DNA of 64,000 nt from an uncultured Cytophagales bacterium (lineage in GTDB: Bacteria; Bacteroidota; Bacteroidia; Cytophagales; UBA9547): NCBI GenBank assembly GCA_945957555.1, contig CAMFLX010000014.1, positions 1 through 64,000 of the forward strand. The letters are read 5' to 3'. The notes under the pieces are model-generated. The model saw nothing but the letters and a program-made list of their open reading frames with translations. It did not search any database and was not told the DNA's origin. Each line of letters begins with the position of its first letter. Position 1 is the stretch's first letter. This document shows positions 6,892 to 20,059 of the stretch, in pieces. Made by a program: the position numbers and the translations under genes.

Positions 6892-8244
6892 TTGGAACTC
6901 AAGGGCTATACAGATATTTATTTACAAAAAAATACTTCGGCAGCAGTCTTGGCGGTATTCAGGATTGCCTTGGGGCTGTTGCTCTTCATATCCATTCTTA
7001 GGTTTTGGAGTAATGGATGGATCGCCGATTTGTATATTACACCCCAATATTTTTTTCCATTTTATGGCTTTGAGTTTGTAAAACCATTAGGTGCCTATAC
7101 CTATGTGCTATTTGGGCTTTGTGCACTTTCGGCACTTATGGTTGCACTGGGATGGTATTACCGTGTGGCAATGGTCTCGCTCTTTCTGAGTTTTACTTAT
7201 ATAGAGCTCATTGATAAATCTACCTACCTCAACCATTATTATTTCATTAGTTTGATCTGTCTCCTGATGGTTTTTCTGCCAGCACAGGTGTACTTTTCTG
7301 TAGATGCGTATCGGAACAAATCCATACATTGCGATCTCATACCGCAGTGGTGTGTTGATGTCATCAAGCTCATGGTTGCTATCCTGTATGTATATGCGGG
7401 CATAGCCAAAATCAACAGTGAGTGGTTGTTGCATGCACTTCCTTTAAAGATATGGCTGCCTGCACGCAACGATATGCCAGTGATTGGTTTTCTATTCAAC
7501 AAATCTTGGGTGCATTATGCATTTAGCTGGATCGGTTGTATCTACGACTTGAGCATTCCTTTTCTGTTGCTGAGTCGTAAGACGAGAGTTTTGGGTTACG
7601 TGGCAGTGGTTGTTTTTCATGTATTGACCTCGCTGTTGTTCCCGATTGGTATGTTTCCCTACATCATGATCGTTACAGCTTTGATCTTTTTTCCGGCAAG
7701 TTTTCACGAAAAAATATTAAGTGTGCTTCAAAAAACGCTGAGACTGCCCAAGCTTATAGGGGCTGGCGTCAAGACTTTGGTTTATAGTGCTACGAGCTTG
7801 CAATATTTCAAATACGGATTTATCGTTTTTTTTGCGCTGCAGTTACTCATGCCATTTAGGTACCTCTTGTATCCGGGCGATTTGTTTTGGACAGAAGAAG
7901 GTTTTAGGTTTTCTTGGCGCGTGATGCTTATGGAAAAGGCAGGCTATGCACAATTCACCGTAAAGGACAGCTCTGGTAAAAAAGCATTTGTAAACAATAC
8001 CTTATTCCTAACCAAGCTGCAGGAAAAGATGATGGCTACCCAACCTGATATGATCCTTCAATACGCCCACATCCTTCGTGATCATTATGCCTCACGTGGA
8101 TTTCAAAATCCAGAAGTATATGTGGATGCCTACGTGGCACTCAATGGCCACATGGGCCGAACCATGATTGACCCTACAGTAAACCTAGCCAAAGAAAAAG
8201 AATCGTTCAATCATAAATCGTGGATCGTACTGTACAATGACTAA
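6892..8244 (+). CDS. HTTM / vitamin K-dependent gamma-carboxylase-like membrane protein
   Basis: A 450-residue membrane protein with several helices up to about residue 330 and a soluble C-terminal part. The YVYAGIAKINSEWL stretch (near residue 170) is the AGxxK-x4-W pattern of the horizontally transferred transmembrane (HTTM) family, and the tail has the LNG...IDP...LA pattern also found in gamma-glutamyl carboxylase. The bacterial function is unknown; a modification of a partner peptide or lipid is possible. No ATG is available, so it starts at TTG 6892, nine bases after the imelysin stop. Its last 8 bases overlap the receptor gene, which implies translational coupling and a shared task with the TonB receptor. 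Confidence 0.85.
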   Translation: MELKGYTDIYLQKNTSAAVLAVFRIALGLLLFISILRFWSNGWIADLYITPQYFFPFYGFEFVKPLGAYTYVLFGLCALSALMVALGWYYRVAMVSLFLSFTYIELIDKSTYLNHYYFISLICLLMVFLPAQVYFSVDAYRNKSIHCDLIPQWCVDVIKLMVAILYVYAGIAKINSEWLLHALPLKIWLPARNDMPVIGFLFNKSWVHYAFSWIGCIYDLSIPFLLLSRKTRVLGYVAVVVFHVLTSLLFPIGMFPYIMIVTALIFFPASFHEKILSVLQKTLRLPKLIGAGVKTLVYSATSLQYFKYGFIVFFALQLLMPFRYLLYPGDLFWTEEGFRFSWRVMLMEKAGYAQFTVKDSSGKKAFVNNTLFLTKLQEKMMATQPDMILQYAHILRDHYASRGFQNPEVYVDAYVALNGHMGRTMIDPTVNLAKEKESFNHKSWIVLYND

Positions 8245-10645
8245 GCGCAACAGCTTTATATTCCTCTTCATTTGTTGGTGTTCTTGCGCCGTGATGGCAC
8301 AACACAAGCTTTCGGGTGTGCTACATTGTGGCCAAGACAGTGTGCATCTGGCCCATACCACGGTATATCTCAATGACGGCGACTTTGCTACAGAAACGGA
8401 TTCCAGCGGTTATTTTGAGTTTAAGGATTTGGCTGATGGAAACTATACCCTTCGTACCAGTAGCACCGAATATTACCCCTTGGAAAAACATGTACATATC
8501 AAGGGGGAAGACCTTCACCTCAAGCTGTTACTACAAAGCGAGTATCACGTGCTGCAAGATGTGGTGCTTACCGAAGAGAATGCCAACCATCTGCGTGCCG
8601 TGGAAAACATGGGGATCTACGAAGGCAAGAAGTCTGAGGTCATCATCATAGATAAGTTGGTGGCCAATTTGGCTACAAATAACGCAAGACAAGTGTATGC
8701 CCGTGTGGCGGGTCTCAACATCTGGGAAAACGATGGTGCGGGTATTCAGCTGAGCATAGGAGGGAGGGGGCTAGATCCTAACCGTACCTCCAACTTCAAC
8801 GTGCGACAAAACGGCTACGATATCAGTGCCGATGCCTTAGGTTATCCGGAAAGTTACTATACACCTCCTGTAGAGGCGATTGATAAAATACAGATTGTAC
8901 GGGGTGCTGCCTCGCTGCAATACGGGACCCAGTTTGGAGGGTTGCTCAACTTTATGCTTAAAAAGCCTGTGGCAGACAAAAAGATCCAACTCACGGCTCG
9001 GCAGAGTCTGGGTTCCTTCGGCTTTTACAATACCTTCACGAGCTTAAGCGGAACGGTGAAGAAGTTCAGTTATTATACCTTTTTCCAATACAAAACGGGT
9101 GATGGTTGGAGACCCAATTCGGCTTTTGACAACTACAATTTCTATACGAATCTCAACTACCAGCTTACTAGCAAAAGTAAGGTCGGCTTGGATGTGACAC
9201 TCATGGACTATCTCGCTCAGCAACCTGGCGGGCTATCCGACGAGATGTTTAGGCAAAACCCTCGCCAGAGCAATCGCGAACGCAACTGGTTTAAGGTAAA
9301 GTGGAACCTCATGGCCTTGCATTATAACCATAAGTTCAATGCCTCCAATGAGTTCAATCTGCGTTTGTTTGGGCTTTCGGCCTTGCGTAACTCTTTAGGC
9401 TTTAGGCCCTATCGGGTGGCTACTATAGATGATAACAGTGAGCGCGATCTCATCAAAGGAGATTTTACCAACTGGGGGGCAGAAGCCAGATACCTCAAGC
9501 GGATCTATATCGCGCGCAAGCTCAATGTACTACTGGTGGGTACCAGATACTACCATGGTTACAACCACAGTACCCAAGGTCAGGGTACAACAAACAGGGG
9601 AGCTGACTTTAACTATGCCAGTGACAACATCATGACTTACGACTACAGTTTCCCAAACAGGAACCTCGCGTTCTTTGCGGAAAATATCTTTTATCTCAAT
9701 GAAAAACTGTCCATCACGCCAGGACTTCGCTATGAGTTTATCCATACCAGAGCCAATGGCTACTATGGCAATGTTAATCGTGACTTGGCGGGGAACATTA
9801 TTTCGGTGAACAGAACCAACGAACCTCGCGACAACAGCCGTCAGTTTATCTTGGGTGGCATAGGCATCAGCTATAAACCTTTTGCAAAACTCAATACCTA
9901 CGCCAACATTTCACAGAACTATCGCTCCATTACCTTCAGCGACATGCGCATAGCCAATCCTTCATCGGTGATAGATCCTAATATGAAGGACGAAAAGGGC
10001 TACTCTGCCGACATGGGCATCCGCAGCGAGCAAACCAAGTTTTACAGTTACGACCTGAGTGTCTTCTACCTCAACTATAACAACCGAATCGGCGAGGTAC
10101 TTACGTACGATGAGAAGGACAGAGTGATCCGTAAGAGAGGCAATGTGGGGCAAGCGGTGATCACAGGGATAGAGTCGTATATAGAAGGAGACCTCTTGCG
10201 CCTCGCTAGGCCACAGGCTAAGAGCTGGAACGGTCTCTTGTTTGCCAACTTGGCCTATATCCGCTCTAGTTATGTCAAGAGTGAAATCACTGGAGTGAAG
10301 GGCAACCAAGTGGAATTTGTGCCTAAGTTCAATATCAAAACGGGTCTCAAGTTGGGTTACAAAAACTTTAAGGCATCCTTTCAATACACCTATCTTACCG
10401 ATCAGTATTCTGATGCCACCAATGCCATAGATGGCGGGGTATCGGCAGTAGTAGGTTTGATTCCTTCCTATGCGATCATGGATTTGAGCCTTTCTTACGA
10501 ATACAAGATGTTCAAAATAGAAACCAGCGTAAACAATCTGGCCAACCGCATGTACTATACCCGTCGCGCTACGGGTTATCCTGGCCCAGGTATCTTACCT
10601 TCTGATGGCAGGAGCCTGTATCTGACCCTACAGGTGAAGATTTGA
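8237..10645 (+). CDS. TonB-dependent outer membrane receptor, FecA-like
   Basis: An 802-residue outer-membrane receptor. It has a signal peptide (1-22), a carboxypeptidase-like regulatory beta domain (about 25-100), a plug domain (about 115-240, with IQIVRGAASLQYG near residue 220) and a 22-strand type barrel to the C-terminus. It resembles the receptors annotated for ferric dicitrate or siderophores, but the ligand cannot be read from the sequence. It overlaps the HTTM gene by 8 bases and closes the DUF4856-imelysin-HTTM-receptor set. No TonB, ExbB or ABC importer is encoded nearby, so energy and inner-membrane transport must come from elsewhere. GC is higher here than in the following genes. 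Confidence 0.92.
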   Translation: MTKRNSFIFLFICWCSCAVMAQHKLSGVLHCGQDSVHLAHTTVYLNDGDFATETDSSGYFEFKDLADGNYTLRTSSTEYYPLEKHVHIKGEDLHLKLLLQSEYHVLQDVVLTEENANHLRAVENMGIYEGKKSEVIIIDKLVANLATNNARQVYARVAGLNIWENDGAGIQLSIGGRGLDPNRTSNFNVRQNGYDISADALGYPESYYTPPVEAIDKIQIVRGAASLQYGTQFGGLLNFMLKKPVADKKIQLTARQSLGSFGFYNTFTSLSGTVKKFSYYTFFQYKTGDGWRPNSAFDNYNFYTNLNYQLTSKSKVGLDVTLMDYLAQQPGGLSDEMFRQNPRQSNRERNWFKVKWNLMALHYNHKFNASNEFNLRLFGLSALRNSLGFRPYRVATIDDNSERDLIKGDFTNWGAEARYLKRIYIARKLNVLLVGTRYYHGYNHSTQGQGTTNRGADFNYASDNIMTYDYSFPNRNLAFFAENIFYLNEKLSITPGLRYEFIHTRANGYYGNVNRDLAGNIISVNRTNEPRDNSRQFILGGIGISYKPFAKLNTYANISQNYRSITFSDMRIANPSSVIDPNMKDEKGYSADMGIRSEQTKFYSYDLSVFYLNYNNRIGEVLTYDEKDRVIRKRGNVGQAVITGIESYIEGDLLRLARPQAKSWNGLLFANLAYIRSSYVKSEITGVKGNQVEFVPKFNIKTGLKLGYKNFKASFQYTYLTDQYSDATNAIDGGVSAVVGLIPSYAIMDLSLSYEYKMFKIETSVNNLANRMYYTRRATGYPGPGILPSDGRSLYLTLQVKI

Positions 10646-11224: not shown

Positions 11225-11238
11225 GGTGGCTCGATACC
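11225..11238. repeat. Inverted half-unit at the edge of the tandem array
   Basis: GGTGGCTCGATACC is the exact reverse complement of GGTATCGAGCCACC, the core of the B half-unit of the adjacent array. It sits directly before the first direct unit. Confidence 0.7.
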
Positions 11239-11532
11239 AACGATTTGGGGCAAGCCACCAACGATTAGTATCGAGCCACCAATCATTTAGGGCAAGCCAC
11301 CAGCCATTGGTATCGAGCCACCAACGATTTGGGGCAAGCCACCAGCCATTAGTATCGAAGCACCAGCGATTTGGGGCAAGCCACCAACGATTGGTATAGA
11401 GCCACCAACGATTTAGGGCAAGCCACCAGCCATTGGTATCGAGCCACCAATCATTTTGGGCAAGCCACCAACGTTTGGTATCGAGCCACCAATCATTTCG
11501 GGCAAGCCACCGACGATTGGTATCGAGCCACC
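11239..11532. repeat. 14 x 21-bp tandem array of alternating A and B units (42-bp dimer)
   Basis: Fourteen consecutive 21-base units without gaps. Odd units end GGCAAGCCACC (A), even units end GTATCGAGCCACC (B), each led by AACGATT/AGCCATT/AATCATT variants, so the true period is 42 bases, seven times. A decayed fifteenth unit follows at 11533-11551. Read from 11142 or 11184 on the plus strand the array encodes heptapeptides such as RFGASHQ and RLVSSHQ; the frame is open through all units except one TAG at 11397-11399, and then ends at TGA 11534-11536. Because of the stop and of many amino acid changing differences I list it as a repeat and not as a gene. Confidence 0.9.
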
Positions 11533-11730
11533 AATGATTGATGGAAAGCCTAACATGCTTGTGCGCAGCTAAAAAGCGATTATTGCTTTGCTAAAGTCTT
11601 TGGGGAGAAACCTATATATGACATATAGATCAGTAAAAATAGTTTGGGGTAATTATACAATGGAATTCACGGTTGTTACAATAGTTTTTAAAATGTAAGA
11701 TATCTGAATTCAAAAGCCCCATTTTAATTA

Positions 11731-15533: not shown

Positions 15534-16232
15534 TTAGGCCGGACGGCCCGTTACCGAGATCTGTACTGGATCGCTCCAGTTACCTACCTCCTCATCGCGT
15601 TTCAGATAGATTGCAATGTATTTCCAGAGTTCGGACTTGCCCAGCTCAGGTAGCGGGTGTGTGTCTAAGTAATCTGGATACAAGTCCACAGCCAAGAAAC
15701 TATAGCTGCCTGTGCCTCTATCTACCATGATCTTCACGCCATCCATCTTGCCTTTCTTCCAGAGGATGTTGGGCTTGCCACCTTGTAGCTCTATGTTTAG
15801 CTCAGGTTTGATCTCCCCAGAGCCGCCACCTTCAGCAGGGCTGCTCCCTTCCACACCAAGGGCCTTGCCCATGGCTTCGTTATACTTTTTCGACTTCTTG
15901 ATGCTGTTGACCAGCGCCCTGACTTCGCCGAAAATATCCGCTTCTGGCTGACCGTCAAACACGATAGCCTCTGGGCGTTCCACCAATGTCCCTGGTTCTT
16001 CTGTACCGTCGCGCATTAGGTTTTTATAAGCGGTGAGTGCCAGTCCGTAGGTACGGTAGCGGTCCACGCCGTTCATGACAGCCTCGAAGTTCTTCGCATG
16101 TCTTACCACGCGCTTCACGGTGTCATCACTCAAGGCCAGCACTTCTGCATAACCCGGTAGGGCGATTGAAAACTTGATCAACCAGTCCTTTAGGCCCATA
16201 TCATCTTTGGGCAGGTAATTTCCACTTGACAT
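15534..16232 (-). CDS. Hypothetical protein with C-terminal Fn3-like segment
   Basis: A 232-residue cytoplasmic-looking protein (no signal peptide) of a type I know only as an uncharacterised Bacteroidota family. Residues 10-125 are helical, with the conserved-looking block LPGYAEVLALSDD and a tyrosine-rich helix; about 128-142 is a Gly/Ser/Glu linker; 145-232 is beta-rich and ends WSDPVQISVTG, as in fibronectin type III-like folds. No catalytic motif is seen. The gene has its own terminator, and a perfect 8-bp hairpin lies 54 bases upstream of its ATG. The large palindrome array begins about 140 bases upstream, between this gene and the divergent XRE gene. Confidence 0.7.
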   Translation of the reverse strand: MSSGNYLPKDDMGLKDWLIKFSIALPGYAEVLALSDDTVKRVVRHAKNFEAVMNGVDRYRTYGLALTAYKNLMRDGTEEPGTLVERPEAIVFDGQPEADIFGEVRALVNSIKKSKKYNEAMGKALGVEGSSPAEGGGSGEIKPELNIELQGGKPNILWKKGKMDGVKIMVDRGTGSYSFLAVDLYPDYLDTHPLPELGKSELWKYIAIYLKRDEEVGNWSDPVQISVTGRPA

Positions 16233-16307: not shown

Positions 16308-16375
16308 ATGGGCTTCTAAAATATTTATGTATTTTTCTCTATCATTATTCTATTGTTATTTACATTTTTCAAAAA

Positions 16376-16695
16376 TCTGAACGACTCAGGAAGATCCTGA
16401 ATGACTCAGAAAATATCTGAGCGATATAGAAAGTATCTAAACGACTCAGAAAAACTCTGAACGATCCGTAAAAGATCTGAATGGCTCAGAAAATATCTGG
16501 ATGTTCCAGAAAAAGCCTGAGCGACTCAGAAATAATCTGTGTTGTCCAGAAATAATCTGAATGCTTCAGAAAAGATCTGAGTGGTTCAGAAAAAATCTGG
16601 ATGACCCAGAAACGATCTGAGTGACTCAGAGAAAGTCTGAATGACTCAGAAAATATCTGAGCGATCCAGAAAAAATATGAATCATAGAGAAAACG
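16376..16695. repeat. 16 x 20-bp tandem array of the palindrome TCTGA-N5-TCAGA
   Basis: Sixteen contiguous units of exactly 20 bases. Each is TCTGA, five bases of the form RYGRY, TCAGA and an A-rich five-base spacer such as AAATA. The arms are mostly complementary. In units 7 (16496) and 12 (16596) TCTGG is matched by CCAGA, a paired change that keeps the palindrome. Units 5, 9, 15 and 16 are imperfect. The array lies in the divergent gap between a minus-strand hypothetical gene and the XRE regulator. Units abut with no unique spacers, so this is not a CRISPR. A minus-strand frame (16486-16821) runs across it with a 20-residue periodicity, but this follows from 3 x 20 bases and is not taken as coding. 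Confidence 0.95.
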
Positions 16696-16958: not shown

Positions 16959-16966
16959 TATATTTG
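16959..16966 (+). promoter_or_regulatory. -7 box of the XRE regulator gene
   Basis: TATATTTG fits TAnnTTTG. Transcription would begin near 16972, too close to the ATG at 16976, which supports the start at 16997. Confidence 0.5.
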
Positions 16967-16996: not shown

Positions 16997-17365
16997 ATGA
17001 AAACAGGTGAAAAAATAAGGCTCATCAGGGAAATCAAACAAATCAGCGCCAAACAAATGGCAGACGACTTGGATATGTCACTGAGTGGTTACCACAAGAT
17101 CGAACGTGGCGACGTAAAACTTACCACCGAGAAGCTAGAGACCATTGCTGGGGTATTAGGTGTAGAGGCAAAAGACCTGTTGGATTCCGTAAACCTAGTA
17201 TATAATTTTCATGAAGGTGCAGTATCTCATAATAGCGGCTATGGCTATCATGTACATGCACTGCCAGAAGAACTTAAAGGTCTCTATGAAGACAAGATCA
17301 AACTATTGGAAGAACAAGTACAGATGTTGAAGGAGAAGATTAAGGGATTGGAGAAAGGGGATTAG
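16997..17365 (+). CDS. XRE-family HTH regulator with C-terminal coiled coil
   Basis: A 122-residue DNA-binding protein. Residues 1-62 form an XRE/Cro helix-turn-helix (from MKTGEKIRLIRE through SLSGYHKIERG to the LLDSV segment). The middle is a short glycine/histidine-rich linker, and about 88-120 form a heptad coiled coil (KIKLLEEQVQMLKEKIKGLE) likely to dimerise it. The frame is open from ATG 16976, but the promoter box makes 16997 the better start. The kinase gene follows after 47 bases. Its place before a HipA-like kinase recalls HipB, though it is longer than usual HipB proteins. The palindromes upstream are candidate binding sites; this is inference. Confidence 0.85.
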   Translation: MKTGEKIRLIREIKQISAKQMADDLDMSLSGYHKIERGDVKLTTEKLETIAGVLGVEAKDLLDSVNLVYNFHEGAVSHNSGYGYHVHALPEELKGLYEDKIKLLEEQVQMLKEKIKGLEKGD

Positions 17366-17412
17366 GGTCAATTTAACTAAATAAAATATTTTCTGTTCTA
17401 ATTTGATACTTA

Positions 17413-18465
17413 ATGGAAAACCATCTATTTTATGTAAGTGGATATAAGGAGCTAACATGGTTAAACTCTGGCGGAACAAGGAATAAAAAAATACTTTCTG
17501 ATGAATATGGGGCCGTTTATTATTTTAAAGAGTCTTTTAATAATGCAAATGGTAAATTTTACAAATATGAATTCTACTCAGAAATAGTTGCTTCCTTTAT
17601 TGGAAAGATGCTAGAATTGGATGTTTTGGAATATTCTATTGCAATATATAAACATCAAATTGGATGTCTGTCCAAATCTATGAACGATGATCAGGAAGAA
17701 CTCATTGAAGGCGGCAAATATTTAAAAGCTTTTGACAATTCCTTTATCGTTGAAAGTGAAAACCCGAAACAGAAATATACCTTTCAGTTAATTGTAAATG
17801 CACTTAAATGTTTTGAATTAGAATCTCATGTTGATCGATTAATTGATATAATAATTTTTGATTCTATAATTGGGAATAGCGATAGGCATCAAGAAAACTG
17901 GGGATTTATTGCAAAAAATACAATCGTTGGGCAGGCATATACTGAAATTGAGAGAACTCTTGAAGGAAAGCCAAGTAGACATTCACCATTGATTAAGAAG
18001 ATGCTTTCTATGTTTGGAATGAATATAAAGATAGTACCCAATGACATAATTCACTATAGGCTGAAAAATATCACTAGGGACGTTAAATTTGCCCCAATTT
18101 ATGATAGCGGTAGTAGCCTAGGAAGAGAGTTAGATGAATCTAAGATTTTAAGTATGCTTAAAAATGATATGCAAATAAATGCATATATAAACAAGGGTAT
18201 GGCAGAGATCCACTGGGATGGAAAAAAATATAATCATTTTGGATTGTTGGAAGAACTTATAAAACAGGATTCTAAAGTAAAAGACAGGATAAGTGAACTT
18301 GTTAGAAAAATAGATACTACAAGAATTCAAGAATTTGTTTCTAAAATAGATATGATGATCCCAGAAGAATTTGAAAGTTGGAAAATACCAAACTATAGAA
18401 AGGATTTGATTGTTAAATTAATTACTTTGCGGAGCCAAAGATTATTGGAGATTATAAATGAGTAA
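17413..18465 (+). CDS. HipA-like Ser/Thr kinase without N-terminal subdomain (HipT-type)
   Basis: A 350-residue kinase of the HipA/CtkA group. Visible elements are a Gly-rich loop NSGGTRNKK (18-26), the ATP-binding Lys in YFKES (39), the catalytic loop GNSDRHQENWG (154-164, Asp157) and the metal-binding YDSGSSL (230-236, Asp231). All key residues look intact. The HipA N-terminal subdomain (about 100 residues in E. coli HipA) is missing, as in HipT of the HipBST systems. The gene following it by an 8-base overlap encodes a protein with a HipS-like N-terminal part, so the function may be split over two chains. HipA and HipT phosphorylate aminoacyl-tRNA synthetases and stop translation; this target is only inferred here. 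The gene is more AT-rich than its neighbours, suggesting transfer. Confidence 0.82.
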   Translation: MENHLFYVSGYKELTWLNSGGTRNKKILSDEYGAVYYFKESFNNANGKFYKYEFYSEIVASFIGKMLELDVLEYSIAIYKHQIGCLSKSMNDDQEELIEGGKYLKAFDNSFIVESENPKQKYTFQLIVNALKCFELESHVDRLIDIIIFDSIIGNSDRHQENWGFIAKNTIVGQAYTEIERTLEGKPSRHSPLIKKMLSMFGMNIKIVPNDIIHYRLKNITRDVKFAPIYDSGSSLGRELDESKILSMLKNDMQINAYINKGMAEIHWDGKKYNHFGLLEELIKQDSKVKDRISELVRKIDTTRIQEFVSKIDMMIPEEFESWKIPNYRKDLIVKLITLRSQRLLEIINE

Positions 18466-19117
18466 ATTTGGTAACATATATTTAAGTTGGAGGAAAGGTA
18501 GTGGCTCTAAAAGACACATTGTGGGGATTATTAAATATAATAGCACAAAGGGTGCGACATTTCAGTATTTGCCTGACAAAGAGCTTAAAGACGCTATAGA
18601 TGATGGATTTAAATGTTATACAGAATTTCCAGAGTTGGATAAGTTGTATAAAGATAATGTGTTAGATACATTTAAACAAAGACTTTTCCGCTCGGAAAGG
18701 AGTGACTACAAAGGCTTTTTAGATTTTTGGGGAATACACATAGAAAATAAAGATGATATTCTCTATTTGCTTGCCCATACTCAAGGATTGGTCCCGACCG
18801 ATAATTTTGAGTTTTTAGCAGATTTTAAGGTAACAAAGGACTTAAGGTTTGTTTCGGAAATTGCTGGTTTGACCTATACTAAAGTGCCAGCCCCGAAATT
18901 AAATGTAGGTGATGAAATTATTTGGAAAAGAAATCCGACGGAATATGATAAATTCCAAGTTGACTTGTTCACAAATGATGGAATATCTTTGGGGCATGTA
19001 AAGAAGGTTCATTCAAGGGTATTCTTTCACAGTAGGGGTGATGATTTAAAAATAAAGGTGCAGGCCATAGATAAAAATGGTACCATAAAAAGAGCCTTTA
19101 TATTGATTAATAAATAA
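18458..19117 (+). CDS. HipS-like / HIRAN domain protein, partner of the kinase
   Basis: A 219-residue protein whose ATG lies inside the end of the kinase gene (8-base overlap), implying coupled translation. Residues about 20-95 resemble the HipA N-terminal (Couple_hipA) or HipS domain: a G-x-I-x-Y...FQYLPD strand pair, and FKQRLFRSERSDY (72-84), the counterpart of the F-x-R-L...R-x-x-Y motif. Residues 96-122 hold ILYLLAHTQGLVPTDNFEF. About 128-215 looks like a HIRAN domain, with the NPTEYD and GISLGHVKK strands. HIRAN domains in helicase-related proteins bind DNA 3' ends; what it binds here is unknown. It could act as antitoxin or as targeting subunit. Homology is judged by eye, so moderately sure. 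Confidence 0.7.
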   Translation: MSKFGNIYLSWRKGSGSKRHIVGIIKYNSTKGATFQYLPDKELKDAIDDGFKCYTEFPELDKLYKDNVLDTFKQRLFRSERSDYKGFLDFWGIHIENKDDILYLLAHTQGLVPTDNFEFLADFKVTKDLRFVSEIAGLTYTKVPAPKLNVGDEIIWKRNPTEYDKFQVDLFTNDGISLGHVKKVHSRVFFHSRGDDLKIKVQAIDKNGTIKRAFILINK

Positions 19118-19453: not shown

Positions 19454-20059
19454 TTGAGTACATTGAACCACATACATCCAATTTTTGATCAAATCCTCCA
19501 AAAGACTGATAAAGAACAGCTCCTCAAGCAGAAGGCGGTAGTGCTTTGGATGGTAGGTCTTTCGGGATCTGGTAAAAGTACCTTGGCTAAGGCTATAGAG
19601 CAGGAGCTACACCAAAAGGGCTTCTTGACCCAGTTGCTCGATGGCGACAACTTGCGCTCGGGAATCAACAACAACTTGGGCTTTTCAGATGCTGACCGTC
19701 AGGAGAACATCCGTCGTGCCGCAGAAGTGGCTAAACTTTTTGTGAACTGTGGGGTACTTACTATTTGTTCATTCATTAGCCCTACGGAAGAGATCCGTAC
19801 CATGGCTAAGAACATTATAGGAGCGGAGAACTTTAGAGAAATCTATATTAATGCATCTTTTGAGTCTTGCGAAGAGAGGGATGTGAAAGGACTTTACAAA
19901 AAAGCTCGTGCGGGAGAGATCAAGAACTTTACAGGTTTGGATTCACCCTTCGAAGCACCGAAAAATCCACATTTGGAACTAAGAACAGACCAAATGAGCT
20001 TTGAGGAGTGTAAAGAGAAGTTTGTAAAATATTTGTTAGAGGAAATTAAATACGTGTGA
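19454..20059 (+). CDS. cysC: Adenylylsulfate kinase (APS kinase)
   Basis: A 201-residue cytoplasmic kinase that phosphorylates APS (adenosine 5'-phosphosulfate) to PAPS with ATP. Visible are the P-loop GLSGSGKST (35-43), the LLDGDNLR segment, the NLGFSDADRQENIRR motif and the family FTGLDSPFE region. No ATG occurs before the P-loop, so it begins at TTG 19454 or TTG 19463. The last two sense codons and the TGA stop lie in a repeat (ACGTGTGA words), so the C-terminus appears to have been set by that element. It heads the cysC-cysD-cysN operon. No PAPS reductase gene is in the window, so PAPS could also serve sulfotransferases. Confidence 0.95.
   Translation: MSTLNHIHPIFDQILQKTDKEQLLKQKAVVLWMVGLSGSGKSTLAKAIEQELHQKGFLTQLLDGDNLRSGINNNLGFSDADRQENIRRAAEVAKLFVNCGVLTICSFISPTEEIRTMAKNIIGAENFREIYINASFESCEERDVKGLYKKARAGEIKNFTGLDSPFEAPKNPHLELRTDQMSFEECKEKFVKYLLEEIKYV

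Follow-up and report, generated by a model that had tools for sequence, protein, structure and literature searches.

The element described here is a small kinase locus in a stretch of 64,000 nucleotides (the window; positions 1 to 64,000 of contig CAMFLX010000014.1, GenBank assembly GCA_945957555.1) from an uncultured Cytophagales bacterium. Three open reading frames (ORFs) lie on the forward strand: a gene for an XRE-family regulator (16997-17365), a gene for a HipA-type kinase of 350 amino acids (17413-18465) and a gene for a partner protein of 219 amino acids (18458-19117). The kinase and partner genes overlap by 8 bp (18458-18465) in different frames, and the XRE gene is separated from the kinase gene by 47 bp. 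The ORFs, the overlap and the gap were confirmed as given in a first-pass annotation of this DNA. Considered by identity alone, the kinase and its partner are with high probability a Bacteroidota member of the hipIN/PDC-M03 family, and they are called HipI and HipN below.

A profile search with the kinase led to CtkA (8.4e-18). The AlphaFold2 model of the kinase (mean predicted local distance difference test score, pLDDT, 87.5) matched the structures of CtkA (7e-11), Shewanella HipA (5e-5) and Legionella HipT (4e-4). In an alignment of 27 kinase homologues, residues K39, D150, N155, D157, R158, H159, N162, W163, D231 and G233 were invariant. D157 and N162 belong to the catalytic motif G154-NSDRHQENW163 (17872-17901, forward strand), and the Mg-binding motif D231-S-G is encoded at 18103-18111 on the same strand. 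The Gly-rich loop, S19-G-G-T-R-N-K25 (17467-17487, forward strand), has its glycines at residues 20-21, and the N-subdomain-1 of HipA, about 100 residues long, is therefore missing from the kinase, which consists of the core only. The earlier description of a HipA-type kinase with complete catalytic residues and without the N-terminal subdomain was thus borne out. Directly before the GGTR loop nearly all homologues carry Ser or Thr, S19 in the window and mostly Thr elsewhere; from the alignment, S19 may be the equivalent of the autophosphorylation position of HipA and HipT. The window kinase is somewhat longer than the published average of 279-321 amino acids for small kinase families (PMC8262856).

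The partner was modelled with high confidence (pLDDT 94.8). Its C-terminal half resembled the DNA-bound HIRAN domain of HLTF (4s0n) with a Foldseek E-value of 8.3e-5 and a probability of 1.00, and profile matches to HLTF chains had an E-value of about 0.03. The Pfam HIRAN profile (PF08797) gave 0.0015, below its curated cut-off. The HIRAN domain predicted in the first-pass annotation, which comprises residues 131-219 or thereabouts (18848-19114, forward strand), is therefore accepted. The YDK...GHVKK stretch of this domain aligned with HLTF, with D and K among the aligned positions, which fits DNA binding by the domain but does not prove it. Most bacterial HIRAN domains are without the Phe needed for binding of duplexes and may bind single-stranded DNA (PMC8262856).

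For the N-terminal half, stand-alone Couple_hipA proteins were gathered from Bacteroidota genomes, 15 of them were aligned, and profiles were compared with hhalign. HipN was collinear with the Bacteroidota HipS profiles over 80 columns, with E-values of 3e-4 to 5e-4 in one-against-one comparison. A weaker Foldseek match was obtained with HipA of the HipBA complex (2wiu_C, E 0.022, probability 0.87). The HipS-like start of the partner had been read from the stretch FKQRLFRSERSDY; the likeness held, but this stretch alone was too narrow a definition. It lies in the middle of a domain that takes up the whole N-terminal part of about 120 amino acids (residues 1 to about 123; 18458-18826, forward strand) and ends in the near-invariant motif TDNFEFLAD.

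Both proteins also matched PADLOC models, the kinase PDC-M03A (8.5e-53) and the partner PDC-M03B (4.3e-27), and the two genes are adjacent. The same organisation was named hipIN by Gerdes, Baerentsen & Brodersen in 2021 (PMC8262856): a short HipI kinase without N-subdomain-1, followed by HipN with a HipS-like part and a HIRAN domain. Neutralisation of HipI by HipN is a proposal of that paper, as is the idea that HIRAN detects the DNA ends of phages or of intermediates of replication, whereupon the kinase is activated and abortive infection follows. The HipI subclades of main clade XI named there are those of Actinobacteria, Firmicutes and Proteobacteria/Cyanobacteria. HipA- and HIRAN-domain genes have also been found side by side in defence neighbourhoods of Gram-positive bacteria (PMC11706625, 2025). 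The PDC candidates of PADLOC derive from a 'guilt-by-embedding' approach (PMC12988326); PDC-M03 was not found by name in the literature search, and the PADLOC papers do not discuss it. The present analysis links these two earlier descriptions, hipIN and PDC-M03. Because organisation, name and sensing hypothesis are in PMC8262856 and both proteins match PDC-M03, the claim of an undescribed system had to be given up; the locus adds no new principle to what is published. The assignment to toxin-antitoxin or defence-type systems agrees with the described hipIN class of putative toxin-antitoxin or phage-defence pairs and with the PDC-M03 defence candidate, and the view of HIRAN as a probable sensor of DNA ends coincides with the published hypothesis.

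Adjacency of the two genes over genomes had been set beforehand as a test. A scan of 84,980 species for relatives of the HIRAN protein yielded 44 loci, all from Bacteroidota except two contigs of metagenome-assembled genomes labelled as planctomycetes. Thirty-nine loci had enough upstream sequence, and in 36 of these a kinase or kinase remnant was present directly 5' of the HIRAN gene (29 intact, 7 broken; none in the remaining 3). This adjacency is far beyond chance, and across Bacteroidota the two genes are stably paired. Among 395 genomes sampled broadly over the phylum, full-length matches to both proteins were present only in the genome of the window and in G306; two further genomes (G388 and G400) contained distantly related kinase/HIRAN pairs with this gene order. 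The family is rare and its kinase-HIRAN linkage is firm.

At five loci (L010, L026, L039, L041 and L053) the HIRAN gene was intact and the kinase was broken by frameshifts, stops or truncation, which could be due to tolerance of toxin loss or to assembly error. The asymmetry of decay in the 39 loci, with 7 broken kinases and 2 broken HIRAN genes, was considered as a sign of kinase toxicity and was set aside as uninformative because the two genes differ in length, metagenome assemblies contain errors and the loci had been selected with the HIRAN protein as query.

In 13 of 45 loci a restriction-modification (R-M) gene of the same strand lay on the 5' side, often at a distance of 2-90 bp. Typical arrangements were hsdR-hsdM-hsdS-hipI-hipN, or a type IIG enzyme or methyltransferase gene directly 5' of the kinase gene. 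The neighbouring genes were verified against PADLOC in seven loci and in the remainder by phmmer to those. That many copies close an R-M operon (type I, IIG or another type) or lie just behind one makes the DNA-end-sensing hypothesis concrete. At four loci (L011-L014), closely similar kinase/HIRAN pairs followed type I R-M operons with strongly different HsdS genes; here the hipIN pair stays while the R-M specificity is exchanged.

Close homologues of the kinase were found neither on plasmids (PLSDB) nor on phages (INPHARED). One phage-like IMG/VR contig (L129; IMGVR_UViG_2870954258_000001) carried a hipIN pair at 246-1920 beside terminase genes and genes of the queuosine pathway, where it possibly serves superinfection exclusion. 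The N-terminal part of PHROG 26212 (547 positions) matched the kinase and positions 328-508 matched HipN; this PHROG is a natural one-chain version similar to HipL. None of the loci eligible for structure modelling contained a HipL-type fusion.

The mechanism favoured here starts from the observed gene order, overlap, domains, conserved active site, pairing and R-M position, and is modelled on HipBST and HLTF. HipI would be translationally coupled to HipN, which would supply the missing lid in the form of its HipS-like domain. This domain would bind HipI and keep it inactive. Binding of DNA ends, probably single-stranded, by the HIRAN domain during phage replication or after restriction or repair would release HipI, and the freed kinase would phosphorylate a component of translation, perhaps an aminoacyl-tRNA synthetase as with HipA and HipT. 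Translation would then stop, and with it growth, ahead of phage maturation. Its place behind R-M operons suggests that the pair is a back-up, a second-line response where restriction or phage replication has left DNA ends, with a logic comparable to that of the anticodon nucleases associated with type I R-M systems. Taken jointly, the hipIN identity and this mechanism are held with somewhat better than even confidence.

Several points weigh against this interpretation. The Pfam matches are sub-threshold for both proteins, with 25.8 bits for HipA_C on the kinase (9.7e-6; curated cut-off, 30.5 bits) and 18.8 bits for HIRAN on the partner (curated cut-off, 24.7 bits). For the HipS likeness the evidence is E-values near 1e-4 from comparisons of single pairs, together with one weak match in structure, and the DNA-contact set of HIRAN is only partly visible (D and K of YD...GHxKK align with HLTF). 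The literature search found no experiment on any hipIN or PDC-M03 system. Finally, the window pair adjoins genes of sulphate assimilation and lies outside any R-M operon.

HipN could instead be a targeting subunit and not an antitoxin. The HIRAN domain would then recruit HipI to stalled forks or to DNA ends, and the kinase would there phosphorylate a DNA-bound phage or host protein. The fusion of a HipS-like lid to HIRAN, always paired with the kinase, is in keeping with this, as is the frequent co-localisation with DNA-acting R-M genes, and the one-chain PHROG 26212 is equally compatible with one working enzyme and with a toxin-antitoxin pair. However, the known targets of HipA and HipT are soluble tRNA synthetases, and the characterised HipS proteins inhibit their own kinase (PMC6581861, PMC10627512). 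A targeting role is accordingly regarded as unlikely, if still worth considering.

The XRE protein (HTH_19, 1.1e-9; coiled-coil tail) had been taken as the B component of the locus, by which the three genes would form a tripartite XRE-HipI-HipN system with a HipB-like autoregulator, as in HipBST but in the order B-T-S. The short gap, the common strand and the only promoter-like box of the locus agree with this arrangement. This box, a candidate -7 element TATATTTG that matches the Bacteroidota consensus TAnnTTTG, lies 5' of the XRE gene (16959-16966, forward strand). Other helix-turn-helix (HTH) genes did occur 5' of the kinase, 124-154 bp away in L046 and L052 and 465 bp away in L016, but these were unrelated to the window XRE, and phmmer found no homologous XRE gene 5' of the kinase in 44 genomic homologues, including the closest one (L010). 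The XRE gene belongs to a set of about 17 paralogues in this genome, and no kinase accompanies its nearest copy (L091, 72% identity). Its G+C content also differs (0.415 against 0.306). Because the gene is absent from nearly all other loci and occurs in about 17 copies, the nearest without a kinase, it was rejected as a conserved, dedicated HipB. It is a neighbour and probably no dedicated part of the module, and the tripartite system is considered rather improbable.

Since most hipIN loci are without an adjoining HTH gene, autoregulation would need another DNA-binding protein, and the HIRAN domain of HipN might take this role in place of HipB by repressing transcription of its own operon, and not sense DNA ends. 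Many loci, however, follow R-M genes at 2-90 bp and offer no room for an operator, and such a role is judged very unlikely. That the pair is a decaying passenger without current function is hardly credible: broken kinases beside intact HIRAN genes at the five loci named above and the rarity of the module, with a complete full-length pair in 2 of 395 phylum genomes, speak for it, but both window genes are intact and retain all invariant residues.

The XRE family deserves description in its own right. Seventeen copies of this amplified XRE-coiled-coil paralogue family were placed in the 6.2-Mb genome of the window (16997-17365 and L091-L106), and the next gene 3' of many of them was an unrelated defence gene of low G+C content. 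These genes comprised HEC-02A/B, PDC-M29A, PDC-M62A, a DUF2326/PDC-M68B (ABC-3C) plus SMEK-CTD10 module, AIPR/AbiU, a type II methyltransferase with a PLD-type restriction enzyme, a class II pAgo and an HD-CE/ATPase protein of 1099 amino acids. A low-G+C gene (<0.355, at least 150 amino acids) followed 11 of the 17 copies as compared with 32 of 241 control genes (13%) from 20 stretches of 20 kb across the genome (binomial p about 1e-6), in a test made after the pattern had been seen and with tandem and paralogous copies that are not independent. With a looser length limit, such a gene was present on the 3' side in 9 of 16 cases and on the 5' side in 1 of 16 (Fisher p 0.003). The pattern was not seen in related genomes; XRE relatives there were mostly beside ordinary genes, and the link to defence genes is therefore not a property of the whole XRE family. 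No shared operator was found 5' of the paralogues, where only the -7 promoter box recurred. Two of the loci (L092, about 8000-9300, and L094, about 7100-8050) had a unit of about 731 bp in common with 91% identity, consisting of a gene for a small divergent protein of about 100 amino acids and the 5' half of the XRE gene. Beyond this unit the cargo differed, with HEC-02 in L092 and DUF2326/ABC-3C in L094. It is conceivable, with a low probability, that this lineage has a defence regulon of its own, with hipIN among its cargo, in which the XRE family controls the modules together or marks landing sites of cassettes. The recurrent XRE-defence neighbourhood is a more unusual side observation than the hipIN pair.

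The hipIN pair of the window is followed by sulphate-activation genes, identified by inspection as a likely cysC at 19454 and then cysD- and cysN-like ORFs. On the 5' side lie a tandem array of 40-bp repeats and a gene for a protein of 232 amino acids. With such neighbours the region is not a large defence island. The array (16371-16682) is built from 20/40-bp units AAAAATCTGAATGACTCAGA, and the unit holds an inverted repeat; another tandem array (11236-11550) has units of 21/42/126 bp. The 232-amino-acid protein (15534-16232, reverse strand) is encoded by DNA of high G+C content (0.52) and had no Pfam match. It has nine matching places in the genome, one of them beside another XRE/defence locus (L092).

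Among known proteins, CtkA (3akj/3akk/3akl) is the closest to the window kinase in solved fold and in sequence. It has been described as a secreted effector, and it is not known to have a HIRAN partner. HipL combines kinase, HipS-like part and HIRAN in the same order on one chain (PMC8262856), whereas the window version is split into two overlapping genes in different frames. HipBST of E. coli O127 and Legionella shares the kinase without N-subdomain-1 and the separate HipS-like partner. Its order is B-S-T, its HipS is without HIRAN and its operon includes the HipB gene, while in the window, as the first-pass annotation had pointed out, the kinase gene comes first and the S-like gene that follows it includes HIRAN. 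PDC-M03 of PADLOC corresponds in both proteins, and its homologues adjoin R-M genes, but the PADLOC entry carries no function. The hipIN systems agree in the short HipI without N-subdomain-1, the HipN gene directly 3' and the proposed sensing of phage DNA ends. They are bicistronic without an HTH gene, whereas in the window, where the kinase is slightly longer and the host belongs to the Bacteroidota, an XRE gene without a homologue at the related loci happens to lie 47 bp 5' of the pair.
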